NCBI GenBank assembly: GCA_015055545.1
Contig: SVHY01000002.1
Span: forward strand, 38,612 to 102,611
From: Clostridiales bacterium
GTDB taxonomy: Bacteria > Bacillota > Clostridia > Christensenellales > Borkfalkiaceae
Direction of reading: 5' to 3'
Length of the DNA stretch: 64,000 nt
Below the pieces are notes generated by a model. The model was not told the origin of the DNA. It saw only the letters and a program-made list of their open reading frames with translations, and did no database searches. The translations under genes were made by a program, and so were the position numbers. Shown piece after piece: positions 1,810-57,618 of the stretch (its first letter is position 1; the number at the start of each line of letters is the position of its first letter).

Positions 1810-3536
1810 TATTTCACCTTATTTGCTTCCGCGGTAATTTCCGCGTTGATTTTTTTCATAAATTCCACGGGAATTTTCACGATTTCTCTATCGTACGTTA
1901 CCAGCCCGTTAATCTCTTCTTCCACGTCTGAAACTTGCGTGTAAATGCACCCGCACAAGCCCTTTTTAATTAGCGGCAACACCTTTTTAAGATACAGTTT
2001 TTCCACCGCCGCGCCGAGCGTTTCAAACGAACGGAATTTCTTATATCCGAACTCTTTTTCTTCGTCGAAAACGTGTCCTGCGCATTTCATGGAATACCCG
2101 CCGAATTCGCTAAGAACCACAGGTCGGCTGTCCTTGGGTACGCGCAAGAGGGTATAATAGGTATGCAAGCTTTTGAGCTCCGTTTTGCCTACGCCCTGAT
2201 CGTGCCAACCGCTGACGGAATCGATGATACGCGTGTTGTCCAAGCTGCGTACGTACTCGGTAAAATGCGCGGAATCGAACTGTCCCCAGCCCTCGTTGAA
2301 AATTGTCCAAAGCCCGATACACGGGCAGTTATACAGCTTTGAAACCGTTTCGTCCACGGCGTGAGCAAACTCCGCGCGCCCGTCTGCGTCGTTACGTGCA
2401 AAATACGCGTAATCGTCGTCGCGGTGCTTAAAGCCCAAAAAGGGCAGGAGCGCAATATGCGACCATTTATAATCGCCGCCGCCGTTCACGAAATCCTGCC
2501 AAACGACGAGCCCTAATCTATCGCAATGATAATACCAACGCATAGGCTCGATTTTAATGTGTTTGCGCACGGTGTTAAAGCCCATGTCTTTGAGCAGTTT
2601 CAATTCTTCCCAAGCCGCTTGATCGCAAGGATAGGTGAGCATACCATCCGACCAATACCCCTGATCGAGTACGCCGTTAAAAAAGTAGGGTTTGCCGTTC
2701 AAGGTCAAGCGCGCTACGCCCTGTTCGTCCCGCGTTTTTCCAAAGGCACGGAACGCGAAATAGCTCTCGATTTTATCTCCCGTCGCGCTCGTGATGACGC
2801 AATCGTACAGTTTGGGGTTTTCGGGCGACCAAGGCTCGAAATCGTAGCGCAAGTCCGTTTCGCTTTGATACCGTTCCCGTAAAATTTCCGTGCCGTTGTC
2901 GTATACGGTAATTTTTTGCCATTCGTCGCCGCAATTCGATTGCACGCGAACGTTCTTGTCTGTAAAATTCGGCGTAAAGCGCAAACCCGTTATATGCGTT
3001 TTTGGCATAAATTCCAACCAAACCGTTTGCCAAATCCCGCTCTGGGGCGTATACCAAATCCCGCCGCGTTTATCTTTTTGTTTCCCGAACGCGCCGCCGT
3101 TTCTCGTTCCTTCGTCGCGGCATTTTACAACCAGTTCGTTTTCGCCTGCTCGTGCGTTTTCAAGCAGCGTCGAAAAAGCCGTGAACCCGCCGCGATGCAC
3201 GGCTACCTTTTCGCCGTTGAAAAATACTTCCGCCTCGCTGTCTACCGCGCCAAAATGCAGTTTAATAGCGCCGTTTAAAAAGCGTTCGTCTATGACGACG
3301 CTTCGGCTGTACACGAGCGTTTCGCCGCTTTCTAAACGGAAATTCTCAATGCCGCTAAGCAACGTTTCGGGGGAAAAGGGAACGAGAATTTTTCCGTCGA
3401 AAACAACGCTTTCGCCCCGTAGTTTTTGCAAATTCCATTTTCCGTTCAAACACAGCCAGTTTTCCCGTTTAGCCTGCGGGAAAGGGTGCTGACTATGCGG
3501 CGTTTCGCCTACGTTATATCTCGTTTTCAAGGTCAT
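1809..3536 (-). CDS. Glycoside hydrolase family 2 protein (beta-galactosidase/glucuronidase-like)
   Basis: Sugar-binding/Ig/TIM-barrel layout; LNGKPYFFNGVLDQGYW, RKHIKIEP, FNEGWGQFD motifs. Confidence 0.85.
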   Translation of the reverse strand: MTLKTRYNVGETPHSQHPFPQAKRENWLCLNGKWNLQKLRGESVVFDGKILVPFSPETLLSGIENFRLESGETLVYSRSVVIDERFLNGAIKLHFGAVDSEAEVFFNGEKVAVHRGGFTAFSTLLENARAGENELVVKCRDEGTRNGGAFGKQKDKRGGIWYTPQSGIWQTVWLEFMPKTHITGLRFTPNFTDKNVRVQSNCGDEWQKITVYDNGTEILRERYQSETDLRYDFEPWSPENPKLYDCVITSATGDKIESYFAFRAFGKTRDEQGVARLTLNGKPYFFNGVLDQGYWSDGMLTYPCDQAAWEELKLLKDMGFNTVRKHIKIEPMRWYYHCDRLGLVVWQDFVNGGGDYKWSHIALLPFLGFKHRDDDYAYFARNDADGRAEFAHAVDETVSKLYNCPCIGLWTIFNEGWGQFDSAHFTEYVRSLDNTRIIDSVSGWHDQGVGKTELKSLHTYYTLLRVPKDSRPVVLSEFGGYSMKCAGHVFDEEKEFGYKKFRSFETLGAAVEKLYLKKVLPLIKKGLCGCIYTQVSDVEEEINGLVTYDREIVKIPVEFMKKINAEITAEANKVK

Positions 3537-4881
3537 TTCCCTTCTCCTTTTTCGCCGTTTTCTTTACCAAAATGGGTACGATGGCAAACATCAACAGCGC
3601 AGTAATCGCCGCCAACAAAAAGATTTCGGGCGCGGGGATATATTGCGTGGTCATCACGTCCGCGTTCGTCAAATCGGGCAGGGGGATTGCCGCCGCTTTA
3701 TTGATAGCGTTGCCGATAGCAGGACCTAAAAGCATAGGGATAAGTACGCTGAAAATCATACGCACGCCTTGCAGTTTTCCCGCGTCCTTTTCGGGGGTAT
3801 GATCGCGCACGAGCGCGCCGCAAAGCGCGGAAACGAGTATATAACCCGTAATCATCACGAACCCAGCCACACCAAAGAGTACGAGCGTCGCCGCCTTACC
3901 CGAAAGGAAAGAAAAGGCGTACATACCCGTAAGCCCAAGCGCGAACACGCCCGTTGCGGCGTAGAGCATAACGGCTTTGTTGCGTTTATCCGACAGCCGA
4001 CCTAAAAACACGTTTACCGCCGCACCGAGGATAATCGCCGCGCCGAACACGACGCTGTATTCCATGACGGTAAAGCCAAGATACGTTTTCATATAAATAA
4101 TGAGATACGGCATAAAAATCTGACACGCCACGCCGTACACGCCCATTAGCACGAGTGTGAGATACAACGGCGTATGTGCTTTGACGACGCTCGGTTTAAA
4201 CCCGTACGCAATATCTTTCAGCTTGCCGTTTTTAACGAGCGACGGGCTATCCTTTACGGTAAAAATTCCAACGATACCGCAAACGGTAATCACGCCGCCC
4301 AGCCCGAAGAATAAGCCTTTATAGCCGATAAACGATACGAGTATACCAAACCCGCCCGCTACGATGAGCATGGCGACGAGCGGTAGAACGGATAAAACGC
4401 TTTCCACCTTTCCGCGGTATTCTTCGCGGGTATTGTCCGTCACCCAAGCGTTGAACGCGGCGTCGTTCGCCGTCGAGCCGAACACGGTCATCACGCAATC
4501 GAGCGCTACGACGAGCGCAACGGCGATAGCCACGGCTTTTACCGTGGTCGTATCAAACAGTTTTGCGATATTCTCTGTCGTAATCAACCCGAACGCCGCT
4601 ACGGTAATACCCCAAATAATATACCCGAAAGATATAAACGAACGCCGATTTCCCGTTTTATCGGAAAGCGTACCCGCCACGAGCGTGGTTATCGTTGCGG
4701 CAACGCCCGAAAGCTGTACCATGAGCGTAACCGCGTCCAAATCAGGCGCGATGGTTTCAAACACGAACAGGTTAAAATATATATTTTCCACCGCCCAAGC
4801 GATTTGCCCAATCAACCCGAACAGCAATAAAATCGTCCAATTCCTTTTCCCAAAAACGTTTTGCATAATATCACCTTGCAC
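3514..4881 (-). CDS. MFS transporter, likely sugar/glycoside uptake
   Basis: 12-TM-like protein; LSDKTGNRRSFI and LGRLSDKRNKAVM loops; overlaps the GH2 start. Confidence 0.8.
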   Translation of the reverse strand: MQGDIMQNVFGKRNWTILLLFGLIGQIAWAVENIYFNLFVFETIAPDLDAVTLMVQLSGVAATITTLVAGTLSDKTGNRRSFISFGYIIWGITVAAFGLITTENIAKLFDTTTVKAVAIAVALVVALDCVMTVFGSTANDAAFNAWVTDNTREEYRGKVESVLSVLPLVAMLIVAGGFGILVSFIGYKGLFFGLGGVITVCGIVGIFTVKDSPSLVKNGKLKDIAYGFKPSVVKAHTPLYLTLVLMGVYGVACQIFMPYLIIYMKTYLGFTVMEYSVVFGAAIILGAAVNVFLGRLSDKRNKAVMLYAATGVFALGLTGMYAFSFLSGKAATLVLFGVAGFVMITGYILVSALCGALVRDHTPEKDAGKLQGVRMIFSVLIPMLLGPAIGNAINKAAAIPLPDLTNADVMTTQYIPAPEIFLLAAITALLMFAIVPILVKKTAKKEKGNDLENEI

Positions 4882-13300: not shown

Positions 13301-13668
13301 TGAATTGCAAGGATTTGCCTTGTGTGAATTGAAAAATAAATTTTTCATGAATTGCCCTACGGGCATGAATTGCAAAACAAAGTTTTGCATTGTGGAAATA
13401 TTACAATAATCAAAACGCAAGCTTTGTATCTATACGCCATAGCGTATGTACCGCTTTGCGGTGAGCGCAACCTCTGGTTGCTTTACTTGGGACTATTTCG
13501 CGGGGCGTTTCTCTCGCAAAGCTGTTCTTTGCGTTCGGGCACGCTCACGCCTACCTATCGGCGTTCGCTTATCTCGTCCCTACAAGGCATTATTAATGCC
13601 TTGCTTAACGGGCAACTCGTCCCAACACCCCACAAGGGACTGTGTCCCTTGACCCTTTTCCTTAGATT
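13301..13668. repeat. Composite multi-hairpin repeat array (element A)
   Basis: TGAATTG boxes at 13301, 13325, 13348 and 13366 separate small hairpins; further hairpins include atacgc-cata-gcgtat, accgc-ttt-gcggt, gcaacc-tct-ggttgc, gcaaag-ctgtt-ctttgc, agggac-tgt-gtccct. Confidence 0.8.
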
Positions 13669-21125: not shown

Positions 21126-23183
21126 TTATTCCTTCTTCGCAGCCTCTACGATTTTATCCACGAGCATAAAGGGTACGTCCTCATAGCCAAGGAATTCGGA
21201 AACGAACTTCCCGCTGCCGCGTGTAAGCGAACGTAATTCCATGGTATATTCCATAATCTCCGCCAAAGGCACTTCCGCGGTGATAATGGAATTTTCGCCT
21301 TCGGTATCCGTGCCCATGATCCGACCGCGCCGCTTGTTGATATCGCCCATAACGTCGCCCAGATAATCGCTGGGCACGGCGATCTTCAAACGGTGGATAG
21401 GTTCAAGCAAGACGGGCGTAGCTTTTTTCAAACCTTCTTTAAAGGCGATTGCCGCCGCCATTTTAAAGGACAGTTCGTTAGAGTCAACGTCGTGATAACT
21501 TCCATCGTACAACACGGCTTTTACGCCCACTACGGGATAACCCGCCAAAGGACCGTTTTCCATACATTCGCGCAAACCTTTTTCAACGGCAGGGAAGTAG
21601 TTCTTGGGGACAGCGCCGCCTACCACTTCTTCTTCAAATACGAAATCTTCATCGGCAGGCGAGAAACGGATTTTTACGTGCCCGTATTGACCGTGGCCGC
21701 CCGATTGTTTCTTGTGCTTACCTTCCGCGTCCGAATTGCCGCGAATGGTTTCGCGATACGCAATCTTGGGTGAGCTCAATTTCATATCCACACCGTAACG
21801 GGATTTCACTTTCTTCACAAGCGTTTCGAGTTGCACGTCGCCTTGCCCGCCCAAAAGCATTTCCGCCGTTTCGGCGTTCTTTTCGATGGAGAACGTGTAA
21901 TCTTCTTCTCTAAGTTTCGCAAGCCCCGCAAAAACCTTGTCTTCTTCGCCTTTCTTTTCCGCGGCAACCGCCATAAACAGAGTAGGTTTGGGGAAGTGGA
22001 TAGGGGTAAAGCGCACTTTTGCGTTGATATCGCAAAGCGTATCGCCCGTGTTGGTGTTGCTCAGCTTATTCACCGCGCCGATATCGCCCGCCGCCAGTTC
22101 GTCTACGGGTTCCATTTTCTTTCCGCGCATCTGATAAATTTGTCCGATGCGTTCTTCCGTTTCCGTGTTCGCGTTCCATACGGTAGAACCGCTCTTTAAA
22201 ACGCCGCGGAAACTCTTCAAATAGGACAGCTTACCCGAATAGGGGTCGATGACCGTCTTAAACACTTGCGCTGCAAACGGAGCGTCTGATACGGTGGGAA
22301 TATTCACGATTTTATCGTTTTGTAAATCGTCAGCAAGCGTATTCATACGTTCGCTCGCTTGGGGCATGTACGTGACGATTTCGTTCAAAAGGTTGATAAC
22401 GCCGCGGTTTTGTAGAGCCGAACCCGCCATGACGGGAATGGTGTTCACGGACGCAATACCAAGACGTATACCGCGAATGGTTTCTTCACGTGTCAAATCA
22501 CCCGTTTCAAAGAACTTATCAAGCAGTACTTCGTCGTTTTCCGCCGCCGTTTCCATAAGGCTGGCTTTCATTTCTTCCACTTGGTCTTTCATGTTCTCGG
22601 GGATAGGAATTTCCTGCGGTCCGCCTTCCTTAAATAAATACGCGCGTTCCTGCAGCGCATTGATACAGCCTTGCATTTTTCCGTTTTCCATAATAGGAAT
22701 TTGGATAGGCGCAAGTTTCCCTGCGTATTTCGCTCTCAGCGCTTGCACGGTACCGAGATAATCAGCGTTTTCCTTATCCATACCGTTAATGAAGATGATA
22801 AGCGGTTTACCCAGTTTCAAGCAATAATCCACGATGGATTGCGCCCCGATCGGCAAAACGCCGTTCGCGCCGATAACCAAGCACGCACCGCCCGCCGCGC
22901 GCAAACCTTCCGCGCGTTCGCCTTCAAAATCGTAATAACCGGGCAGGTCGAGCAAATTGACTTTTACGTCTTTCCATATTAAATAAGAACAAGAAGTGTA
23001 AATAGACATCTTCTTGGCTTTTTCCAATTCATCAAAATCGGAAACGGTCGTCCCGTCGGGCACTTTGCCCTGTCTGTCGATAGCGCCACCGTTAAAGAGC
23101 ATAGCTTCGCAAAGAGTGGTTTTCCCTTCGCCGCTGTGTCCCACGATGGCAATGTTACGGATGTTTTCGCTTTGTACGTTCAT
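21126..23183 (-). CDS. Elongation factor G-like GTPase paralog (EF-G2/FusA-like)
   Basis: GHSGEGKTTLCEAMLF P-loop, DLPGYYDF switch II, GGHGQYGHVKIRFSP domain IV, RGRIMGTDTEG domain V. Confidence 0.88.
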   Translation of the reverse strand: MNVQSENIRNIAIVGHSGEGKTTLCEAMLFNGGAIDRQGKVPDGTTVSDFDELEKAKKMSIYTSCSYLIWKDVKVNLLDLPGYYDFEGERAEGLRAAGGACLVIGANGVLPIGAQSIVDYCLKLGKPLIIFINGMDKENADYLGTVQALRAKYAGKLAPIQIPIMENGKMQGCINALQERAYLFKEGGPQEIPIPENMKDQVEEMKASLMETAAENDEVLLDKFFETGDLTREETIRGIRLGIASVNTIPVMAGSALQNRGVINLLNEIVTYMPQASERMNTLADDLQNDKIVNIPTVSDAPFAAQVFKTVIDPYSGKLSYLKSFRGVLKSGSTVWNANTETEERIGQIYQMRGKKMEPVDELAAGDIGAVNKLSNTNTGDTLCDINAKVRFTPIHFPKPTLFMAVAAEKKGEEDKVFAGLAKLREEDYTFSIEKNAETAEMLLGGQGDVQLETLVKKVKSRYGVDMKLSSPKIAYRETIRGNSDAEGKHKKQSGGHGQYGHVKIRFSPADEDFVFEEEVVGGAVPKNYFPAVEKGLRECMENGPLAGYPVVGVKAVLYDGSYHDVDSNELSFKMAAAIAFKEGLKKATPVLLEPIHRLKIAVPSDYLGDVMGDINKRRGRIMGTDTEGENSIITAEVPLAEIMEYTMELRSLTRGSGKFVSEFLGYEDVPFMLVDKIVEAAKKE

Positions 23184-23210
23184 AATAATGAACCCCCTAA
23201 ATTAGTTTCT

Positions 23211-23381
23211 CAATGAATTGTCCTGCGTGAATGAAGTGGGGCAACGCCCCGCAAAATAAGCCCCAAGTAAAGCAACCGCAGGTTGCGCATCACCGCGTTA
23301 GCGGTTATTACGCTATGGCGCATAAACGTGAACCTTGCTTTGGCTATTTCCATTCAGGCAAGTCCTACTTGCAATTCATTG
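23211..23381. repeat. MITE-like multi-hairpin element (element B) with exact 10-bp terminal inverted repeats
   Basis: CAATGAATTG at 23211-23220 and CAATTCATTG at 23372-23381; internal hairpins ggggc-aac-gcccc, gcaacc-gca-ggttgc, accgc-gtta-gcggt; reverse complement aligns with element A. Confidence 0.8.
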
Positions 23382-23506
23382 ATACTATTATACAATACTT
23401 TCGTTCATTTTTCAAGAATTTTAAAGCAACTTTTTCACAAAAAAAGAAATTTTTTTTCAATTTTTCATAAAAAATCAAAATCCGCGCAGAAAAAACCGCT
23501 TTGTTC

Positions 23507-23542: not shown

Positions 23543-24688
23543 ATGAGCGACGTAATTTATTTAGACCACGCGGCAACCACGCCGTTGGATAAAAGAGTGT
23601 TTGAAAAAATGCGCCCGTATTTTTGCGAGTGCTACGGTAACGCCGATTCTCCACACGCTTTGGGCAGAAAAGCGCAAGCGGCGGTGGATGCTGCACGCGA
23701 TTGTGTGGCAGAACTTATCGGAGCAAAGAGTAATGAAATTTATTTCACTTCGGGCGGTACGGAAAGCGATAATTGGGCGATTATAGGTGGCGCACGCGCC
23801 AAACGCGTAGAGGGTAGAACGCAAATTGTTGTATCCACAATCGAACATCACGCCGTATTATCCGCGGTAGAACGGCTGGAAAAAGAGGGCTTTGAAATTG
23901 TGTGGCTTCCCGTGGACGAGGGGGGCATGGTTGCGTTGCAATCTATTCAAGACGCCGTTTCTGATAAAACTGCTATCGTTTGTTTGATGGCAGTCAACAA
24001 CGAAACGGGCGTAAAACAGCCCGTTGAGCAAGCCGCGTCAATCGCCAAGGAGCGCGGCGCGCTGTTTTTCACCGACGCCGTGCAAGCCGCACCGTATATG
24101 CCCATCGACGTCAAGGCTTGGGGCGTGGATTTGTTGAGCTTTTCTTCGCATAAATTTTACGGACCGAAAGGTTGCGGCGTTTTGTATATCCGTAGTGGCG
24201 TTAAAATGGAAAAACTCGTCGGAGGTGGCGAACAGGAACGCGGTATGCGCGGCGGTACGACCAACGTCCCGTTCGTGGTCGGCTTGGCGGAAGCTTATCG
24301 CTTGATTAGAGCGGAAATGCAAGAAAATAACGCCAAATTACAATCGCTTGCGGAAACGTTCATGCAAGAGCTTGCTCCGCTTGACGGCATTATGCGCAAC
24401 GGTGATAAGGCTAACGCGCTCCCGTCTGTGTTGAATTTACGTTTTTCGGGTGTGGAGAACACGTCGCTTTTGTATAATATGGACTTGCAGGGCGTGGCGT
24501 TTGCCGCGGGCAGTGCTTGCGCTAGCGCGTCGGTAAAGCCTAGCCACGTATTGACGGCAATGGGCTTAAACGAAACACAAGCAAAAGAAAGCGTTCGGTT
24601 GAGTTTTGGTAAGGATAATACGTTGGAAGAGGTTACGCGCGTAGCGGCACTTTTAACCGATACGCTGCGCCGTTTACGAAAAAAATAA
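23543..24688 (+). CDS. Cysteine desulfurase (NifS/IscS-like)
   Basis: YLDHAATTPLDKRV, TSGGTESDNWAI, SFSSHKFYGPKGCGVLYIR, SACASASVKPSHVL. Confidence 0.94.
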   Translation: MSDVIYLDHAATTPLDKRVFEKMRPYFCECYGNADSPHALGRKAQAAVDAARDCVAELIGAKSNEIYFTSGGTESDNWAIIGGARAKRVEGRTQIVVSTIEHHAVLSAVERLEKEGFEIVWLPVDEGGMVALQSIQDAVSDKTAIVCLMAVNNETGVKQPVEQAASIAKERGALFFTDAVQAAPYMPIDVKAWGVDLLSFSSHKFYGPKGCGVLYIRSGVKMEKLVGGGEQERGMRGGTTNVPFVVGLAEAYRLIRAEMQENNAKLQSLAETFMQELAPLDGIMRNGDKANALPSVLNLRFSGVENTSLLYNMDLQGVAFAAGSACASASVKPSHVLTAMGLNETQAKESVRLSFGKDNTLEEVTRVAALLTDTLRRLRKK

Positions 24689-55769: not shown

Positions 55770-56161
55770 AAAGAGTAATCACTTACGGGACGTTCGATTT
55801 GTTGCACTACGGGCATATCAATTTACTTCGTAGGGCGAAAGAGTTGGGCGATTATTTGATCGTTGCGCTTTCAACGGACGAGTTTAACTGGAACGAAAAA
55901 CAGAAAAAATGTTATTTTTCCTACGAACAGAGAAAACAGCTTTTGGAATCCATTCGGTACGTGGATTTAGTAATTCCCGAAGAAAACTGGGATCAAAAAA
56001 GGACGGACGTGAAAGAATATCATATCGATACGTTCGTTATGGGTAACGACTGGGAAGGAAAGTTCGATTTCTTGAAAGAACAATGCGAAGTGGTGTATCT
56101 GCCCAGAACCAAAGAAATTTCTACGACGAAAATCAAAAACGATTTGTTGGATAAAAAGTAA
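55766..56161 (+). CDS. tagD: Glycerol-3-phosphate cytidylyltransferase
   Basis: [67 protein letters not shown]. Confidence 0.96.
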
Positions 56162-56172
56162 GGAGCTTGCAT

Positions 56173-57618
56173 ATGGCGTTGGCAAATAGCAGTGAAAAAT
56201 TGTACCTTGGAAAGACGGCGAAAGAGTGGCTGCAAGCCGCGCGCGCGTTTTTCAATAGCGGTTGGGGGTTCGTTTTGCAAACGGCGCTTGCGTTTATCTT
56301 CGTGTTCTTGCAACAGGAAGTTATCGGCGTTATCGTCTTTATCGGCTTACTGTCCGTTATCTTAATCGTGTGCGACGACGTGATTGCAACGACGCTCCCG
56401 TTTTTGCTCGTGTGTACCTTTTCTACCAACTGCTACGATTCCTTCGATACGTTTATCGGGTTTGCCGTGTACGCGCCCATTCCCGCGGCGGCGCTCGTGG
56501 GGCATTTCCTCGTTTATCATAAGCCGTATCGCGAGTTTGGGATAAGCGCGTACGGGTTGTTCGCCATAAGCTGTGCTCTTATTTTGGGCGGTATCGGCGC
56601 ATTTGCCTTGAAAGAATACATACTCGGTGCGTATTACGTGTTCGGGCTGGGTATTGGTATGTTGGTGGCGTACATATTGATGAAATCACAATTTGCAGGG
56701 CGTAGAGATTACGATTTAAAAGAGAAGTTCGCGCAGATTATGACTTGCATGGGTTGCTTGATTTTGGCGATGTTCGCGCTTTCCTTTATTCGCCGTTTGG
56801 CAGGGGATCAGATTTGGGGCTTTCCCGATATCCGTTGGCTGATTGGCGCGAACGGCAGAACGGGCTATACGCTGGGATTTTCCGCTAACAATATCGCAAC
56901 GCTGTTGATGTTCGCGATGCCTTTCCCCTTATACCTTGCGAAAAAACACAAGGCTTGGGCGATTATGACCGTCGTATTTTTCCTGTCGCTGTTTTATACG
57001 GAATCGCGCGGGGGTATGTTGTTTGGTGCGGTAGAGTTCTTGGCTTGCTTTTTGTACTGGGCTTGGGAAAATAGGACGACCAAGCTTTGCAAGGTGGCGT
57101 GCGTAGGCGCAATCTTGGTATTTATCGCCGTGATAGCGCTTGTCATCGTTAAATGGAACGTCGTGATCGCTCTTATACAAACCAAGCTTTTAGACGGTGC
57201 GCGCGCGAAAATGCTCTTTCAAGCGTTCGACAATTTCCGCGAAAATTTCGTGGTTGGAACGGGGCTTTTGGACGATAGTATCGCCTACGGCGAAACGAAG
57301 AAACAGGGTACGATGGCGTGGTATCATATGATGATACCGCAAATTATCGGCAGTATGGGGCTCGTAGGCGTTTTTGCGTACGGTTATCAAATCTTTGGAC
57401 GCGTAAAGCTGATATTTAAAAAGGCGTGCGCTTGGTCGCTCGTTTTGGGGATTTCCTATCTTGGGATTTTGGGTATGAGCCAAGTTAACCCCGGCGAATT
57501 TTGCCCCGTACCGTACGGTGTACTCACCGTGTTATTGTTCGTATTCCAAGAACTGCGTTTAGAAGAGAATGAAGAATTGCCCTTGCAATGGGAGGGCGCG
57601 TTTAAGAAACGGAAATAA
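56173..57618 (+). CDS. O-antigen ligase/polymerase family membrane protein
   Basis: Many TM segments; FLSLFYTESRGGMLFGAVEFL; start ATG 56173. Confidence 0.85.
   Translation: MALANSSEKLYLGKTAKEWLQAARAFFNSGWGFVLQTALAFIFVFLQQEVIGVIVFIGLLSVILIVCDDVIATTLPFLLVCTFSTNCYDSFDTFIGFAVYAPIPAAALVGHFLVYHKPYREFGISAYGLFAISCALILGGIGAFALKEYILGAYYVFGLGIGMLVAYILMKSQFAGRRDYDLKEKFAQIMTCMGCLILAMFALSFIRRLAGDQIWGFPDIRWLIGANGRTGYTLGFSANNIATLLMFAMPFPLYLAKKHKAWAIMTVVFFLSLFYTESRGGMLFGAVEFLACFLYWAWENRTTKLCKVACVGAILVFIAVIALVIVKWNVVIALIQTKLLDGARAKMLFQAFDNFRENFVVGTGLLDDSIAYGETKKQGTMAWYHMMIPQIIGSMGLVGVFAYGYQIFGRVKLIFKKACAWSLVLGISYLGILGMSQVNPGEFCPVPYGVLTVLLFVFQELRLEENEELPLQWEGAFKKRK

Follow-up and report, generated by a model that had tools for sequence, protein, structure and literature searches.

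The described systems closest to the element studied here are REPINs and Allomyces-type hairpin elements. REPINs have symmetric, compensating hairpins without target duplication (PMC3116915), and the Allomyces-type elements likewise carry symmetric, compensating hairpins with no target duplication reported (PMC2800124). Here we analyze an element in a Clostridiales genome (GenBank assembly GCA_015055545.1), found in a window of 64,000 nucleotides of contig SVHY01000002.1, which is the whole stretch of DNA that was analyzed. An original prediction had described this element as a MITE-like, non-autonomous mobile repeat.

Results

Structure of the window element

The element lies, as predicted, between two divergent genes that encode an EF-G-like protein (21126-23183, minus strand) and a cysteine desulfurase (about 23543-24688, plus strand). 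The exact inverted termini enclosing small hairpins were also confirmed; however, the ends, TCAATGAATTG and CAATTCATTGA, are perfect complements over 11 bp rather than the 10 bp first given, with 151 nt between them and four to five hairpins inside (Table 1). Four stems of at least 5 bp are present where 0.76 would be expected in 180 bp at the window average, a fifth hairpin is imperfect, and the stability of the folded strand greatly exceeds that of its shuffles (z = -5.0). The element is non-coding and contains no transposase ORF, and an Rfam search of the window gave no match above the gathering score anywhere. Taken alone, the inverted ends are not beyond chance, as exact 10-mer inverted pairs 100-250 nt apart number 12 in the window versus 22.8 in simulated sequence. 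What makes the ends credible is their recurrence, along with that of the hairpins, at many other places. BLASTN, which had been proposed as a search for other copies, identified 35 further places in the genome, in line with the predicted repeat. Placement is intergenic, and the 34 other loci have no bias for gene ends or orientation, by which a role tied to gene orientation was rejected.

Table 1. Coordinates of features in the window.
Feature	Position	Strand	Basis
Left outer spacer / terminal inverted repeat TCAATGAATTG, family B end	23210..23220	+	Exact complement of 23372-23382; other B elements with the same ends
Degenerate first side hairpin (TCCTGC) and second left spacer (GTGAATG), family B	23221..23233	+	Comparison with intact B elements; pairs with 23351-23359
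Family A core, string of hairpins	23236..23326	+	BLAST; covariance-model match of 91.2 bits
A hairpin 2, GGGGC aac GCCCC (GGGGCaacGCCCC)	23238..23250	+	Stem search, copy comparison
A hairpin 3, GCAACC gca GGTTGC (GCAACCgcaGGTTGC)	23272..23286	+	Stem and covariation
A hairpin 4, ACCGC gtta GCGGT (ACCGCgttaGCGGT)	23292..23305	+	Stem and covariation
A hairpin 5, TACGCTATGGCGCA, imperfect in the window copy	23309..23322	+	Covariation
Family B terminal side hairpin GCAAGT cct ACTTGC (GCAAGTcctACTTGC, 23358-23372) and spacer CATTCAG before the hairpin	23345..23372	+	Matches of the right end at other genome positions
Right outer spacer / terminal inverted repeat CAATTCATTGA	23372..23382	+	Complementarity; recurs in other elements
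Predicted promoter of the EF-G-like gene: TATAAT 23392-23387, TTGAAA 23415-23410, spacing 17 bp	23387..23415	-	Sequence reading; kept in relatives
Second complex: B arm 13301-13372 (+), A core 13429-13538 (-), family F 13509-13621 (-) in an A hairpin loop	13301..13656		

A mosaic of two repeat families

The BLAST matches of the window element fall into two sets, one covering the interior (set A, about 23236-23340) and one covering the right end (set B, about 23345-23382). These two separate sets argue that the 171 bp are a mosaic and not one repeated unit, and the stretch of about 170 bp is a composite in which the outer layer of a family B element surrounds a family A core. The end sequence is repeated internally four or more times, and the inverted ends are no more than the outermost pair in a series of spacer pairs. 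The source genome was catalogued by searches together with about 340 kb of contigs, from an assembly that is 83% complete.

Other joints between the families were observed. Family A adjoins half a B element at L021 and L032, L013 has an A core with B-like sequence on both flanks, and at L015 a B-like hairpin and centre directly precede A. A third family, F, with about eleven copies in the source genome, was found inside the loop of A hairpin 1 (L117, L122, L123 and L128) or of A hairpin 2 (L119, L124, L125 and L127), and the window has a second complex with F in an A hairpin loop. We also observed B half-elements that are broken at the central palindrome and joined to unrelated DNA. One such pair of halves, within C19:102001-104502 of the source genome (L065 and neighbours), encloses a two-gene cassette at C19:102075-104428 with an oxidoreductase gene and a gene for an AraC-type regulator; it looks as though this cassette had been inserted into the centre of a B element. 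For the mosaic in the window, either the nesting of one element in another or recombination of two elements would be the origin. On C19 of the source genome there are additional strings of hairpins at 55961-56226, 75175-75325 and 112855-112939, with three other kinds of spacer, including GTGATAT/ATATCAC and CTCATAAC.

Family A stems covary, probably at the DNA level

A typical family A copy reads GGGT[CAAGGGAC aca GTCCCTTG]TGGGGTG[GGGGC aac GCCCC]..AAGCCCCAAGTAAA[GCAACC gta GGTTGC]gctct[ACCGC gta GCGGT]tat[TACGC tatg GCGTA]TAGA. A covariance model built from ten copies matched the source genome 43 times, 42 of these besides the window copy, and related cores were found with it in 36 of the 57 genus genomes, with up to 63 matches per genome. 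In an alignment of 86 matches, 98.2% of cells are paired. Two-sided changes occur in 27 of the 28 stem pairs, and the number of two-sided cells is 379 compared to 81 in shuffles. Selected RNAs should tolerate G-U pairs far more often than mispairs. In the A alignment, G-T cells (about 34 of 2107, with one poorly placed pair left out) are as rare as mispairs; together with this general expectation, their rarity therefore points to stems that reflect the structure of DNA and not of RNA. A longer A element in L363 is also symmetric and ends in [AAGGGG atta TCCCCTT]GACCCTT.

Family B and its spread in Clostridia

In family B elements, hairpins alternate with a spacer that reads TGAATTG left of the central palindrome CATTGTGGAAATATTTCCACAATG and CAATTCA, its complement, to the right of it. 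The pattern CAATTCAY-(8-22)-CAATTCAY occurs 50 times in the source genome and is absent from the reversed control. The same spacer-hairpin-spacer pattern is present in 23 of the 57 genus genomes, reaching 152 occurrences in one congener, and complete, ordered B elements recur at unrelated places. Such units are also found in several other Clostridia families, and a stricter B pattern is rare across the class (7 of 388 sampled genomes), with 89 copies in G216, 44 in G209, 31 in G367, 17 in G103 and 8 in G087. Four or more perfect outer pairs are present in 83% of the 124 distinct B inserts, versus 3.8% when shuffled, and 48 different stems are represented. A single stem can carry many loops, as GCGCC appears 9 times with 8 loops and GAAAAGC 8 times with 6. 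When three-base B loops are read from the CAATTCA strand, GNA is found 29 times and TNC 3 times (p = 2.6e-6; several genomes).

In G216, which belongs to another Clostridia family, there are numerous composite strings at L325-L344 that are nearly identical to one another, have both CAATTCA and TCGATATG as spacers and in some cases are tandemly duplicated. Carriage by phages or plasmids was rejected: a search of the phage collection with the window element gave no match, nor did one of phages and plasmids with a G216 element. A pattern scan of viral contigs gave what seem to be mostly chance matches, except for L243 (IMGVR_UViG_3300018878_005006), a 5-kb contig of the viral collection with three hairpin strings at about 230-370, 2880-3020 and 4520-4750. 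This contig may be host DNA filed as viral.

Probable insertion into the gyrB-gyrA gap

We compared the gap between gyrB and gyrA in 30 genomes, including that of the source. The gap is 10-46 bp long in 17 congeners; in the source genome it measures 227 bp and has a complete B element inside. B elements with other hairpins occupy it in G077 and G022, A elements in G073 and G023, and an A-type stretch in G005, so that B elements are present in three genomes and A elements in three, the source among these six. G076 has a remnant with one A hairpin, and the six remaining genomes have longer, different gaps. This presence and absence supports the insertion of A and B elements as a probable event in this gap. 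A search for empty sites had been suggested for the window element; the window site itself gives no base-exact empty site.

The leader of the EF-G-like gene

The window element sits between the predicted promoter and the Shine-Dalgarno sequence of the EF-G-like gene. The predicted transcription start is near the element's right end, and the element would therefore make up nearly all of the 5′ leader. Relatives retain the TTGAAA..TATAAT promoter and a GGGGG Shine-Dalgarno sequence, and the window element is absent from their orthologous leaders, while L085 and L092 have A strings elsewhere in the gap. Many relatives (L074-L091) have a leader stem of their own upstream of the EF-G-like gene, ATTATCGGT..ACCGATAA, which includes a CCCC stretch and is missing in the source genome, where the corresponding region is 23184-23415. 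It is possible that this CCCC stretch, facing the GGGGG Shine-Dalgarno sequence, serves leader regulation. The window element thus occupies the place of a variable leader, which is not a base-exact empty site.

Searches for an enzyme that moves the repeats

Target duplications, another proposed check, were not borne out, as none is convincing among 22 B elements; one of 35 settings gave p = 0.003, which is not significant after correction. The RAYT/Y1 transposase was rejected as the mover because its domain (PF01797) is absent from the source genome, at 83% completeness, and within the genus shows no association with the number of B copies (Y1 is present in 9 of 20 B-rich and 12 of 37 B-poor genomes). 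No insertion sequence with B ends was seen in about 340 kb of the incomplete source assembly and in stretches of three congeners. The only long interval from arm to arm, the oxidoreductase and AraC-type regulator pair on C19, was tried as an autonomous copy and rejected since it encodes no transposase.

Discussion

We give about even chances to the reading that the window feature is a mosaic copy of genus-wide, non-autonomous mobile repeats made of DNA hairpin strings, which spread in the manner of REPINs through folded single-stranded DNA processed in trans. The mobility of these repeats is well supported. The folded single-stranded form is what we infer for the mechanism, because pairing at the DNA level and the lack of target duplications both fit it and because the repeats resemble REPINs and Allomyces-type elements; a lack of duplication is as expected for a single-strand route. 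In a single-stranded B element, the arms would pair through their spacers and the hairpins would stick out sideways, and this folded intermediate would be processed by an enzyme acting in trans. The stems could be kept perfect if only well-folded copies are moved or if one arm corrects the other. The failure of our searches to find a mobilizing enzyme counts against this explanation. A wider proposal, which we hold tentatively and with less confidence, is that the repeats would form a class of mobile DNA in bacteria that has not been described before. Its members, found in several Clostridia families, would be shaped like trees, with hairpins that are lineage-specific and exchangeable set between copies of a fixed short spacer; they would be moved as folded single-stranded DNA by an enzyme and grow by inserting into one another's loops and central palindromes in nested fashion. 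Such hairpin arrays in Clostridia were not found in the literature searched, which is not proof of absence, and this large set of repeats from gut Clostridia is apparently undescribed.

A serious rival, although we consider it unlikely, is an origin by replication and recombination without any transposase, in which template switching, snap-back synthesis and copy-to-copy exchange, all provoked by hairpins, lead to modules being copied, swapped and nested. Mosaic exchange could come from recombination alone, and the mosaic joints, the half-elements broken at the central palindrome and the placement of family F in hairpin loops are all consistent with this origin, as are the absence of a transposase correlate and of target duplications. 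However, complete and ordered B elements occur at unrelated places, and elements stand alone in the short interval between gyrB and gyrA, which most congeners leave empty; this requires the insertion of whole units.

The classical MITE, related by deletion to a DDE insertion sequence having TCAATGAATTG ends and moved as double-stranded DNA, is improbable. Much of the original prediction stands, as the element is repeated, intergenic, non-coding and non-autonomous with an insertion supported at an orthologous gap, and inverted ends, lack of an ORF and many intergenic copies are what a MITE would have. The part that fails is the mobile unit: the ends and the interior come from two families that are normally apart, so the 171 bp are not what moves, and the inverted end recurs internally. 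Moreover, the 22 B elements lack target duplications, the stretches searched yielded no transposase gene bounded by such ends, and the only long left-to-right arm interval contains metabolic and regulatory genes. It is very improbable that the element is in essence a regulatory RNA structure of the EF-G-like leader (an attenuator or similar) with only a secondary likeness to repeats, since for all its covarying stems and its position between promoter and Shine-Dalgarno sequence, where relatives have a structured leader of their own, G-U pairs are no commoner than mispairs, the 34 other loci are without bias for gene ends or orientation, Rfam gave no match and orthologous leaders lack the element.

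The hairpin-string repeats fill short intergenic gaps, even within the gyrB-gyrA operon and the EF-G-like leader, and would therefore remodel transcripts genome-wide. They provide a natural and very large set of covarying DNA hairpins for distinguishing selection for folding from the correction of one arm by the other, and they may point the way to an enzyme active on hairpin DNA. In gut metagenomes, such repeats can be mistaken for RNA structures or MITEs.

Comparison with known systems

Similar to REPINs, REP sequences and BIMEs, among which the GTAG REPs are mobilized by RAYTs, the Clostridia elements are high-copy, intergenic and built from symmetric, conserved pairs around a hairpin-forming, compensating interior, with halves and clusters also occurring (PMC3116915); the inverted doublet with such an interior, known from REPINs and REP, is found in the Clostridia elements. 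In contrast, these have many hairpins per arm instead of one and an 8-bp spacer between hairpins, and G-T pairs, which were often seen in a REP survey (PMC3733652), are rare. The B hairpins start after CAATTCAY and stop before CAATTCAY without a GTAG or CGTC tag, and the source genome, 83% complete, has no RAYT; because these two defining features of the REP/RAYT system were tested for and are lacking, we do not file the repeats there.

The mitochondrial hairpin elements, namely DHE of Allomyces, RHE of sponge and the palindromes of Volvox, also combine conserved stems with variable loops, tandem strings and palindromes inside palindromes (PMC2800124, PMC2670323), and the absence of target duplications in B elements matches what is reported for DHE (PMC2800124). 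Those elements are organellar, whereas the Clostridia elements are on bacterial MAG contigs with bacterial genes and form ordered hairpin strings with fixed complementary spacers and a palindromic centre. The likeness lies in how the elements work and not in shared descent.

With MITEs, the window element shares its exact 11-bp inverted ends, which recur in B elements, the lack of an ORF, the intergenic position and the multicopy state. It differs in its many internal spacer-hairpin units and its modular mosaics, and no parent insertion sequence was found in the stretches searched; because target duplication was tested for and is lacking, it is not an established MITE. A REPIN-like hairpin string describes the window element better than a MITE, and we file it among short palindromic mobile repeats.
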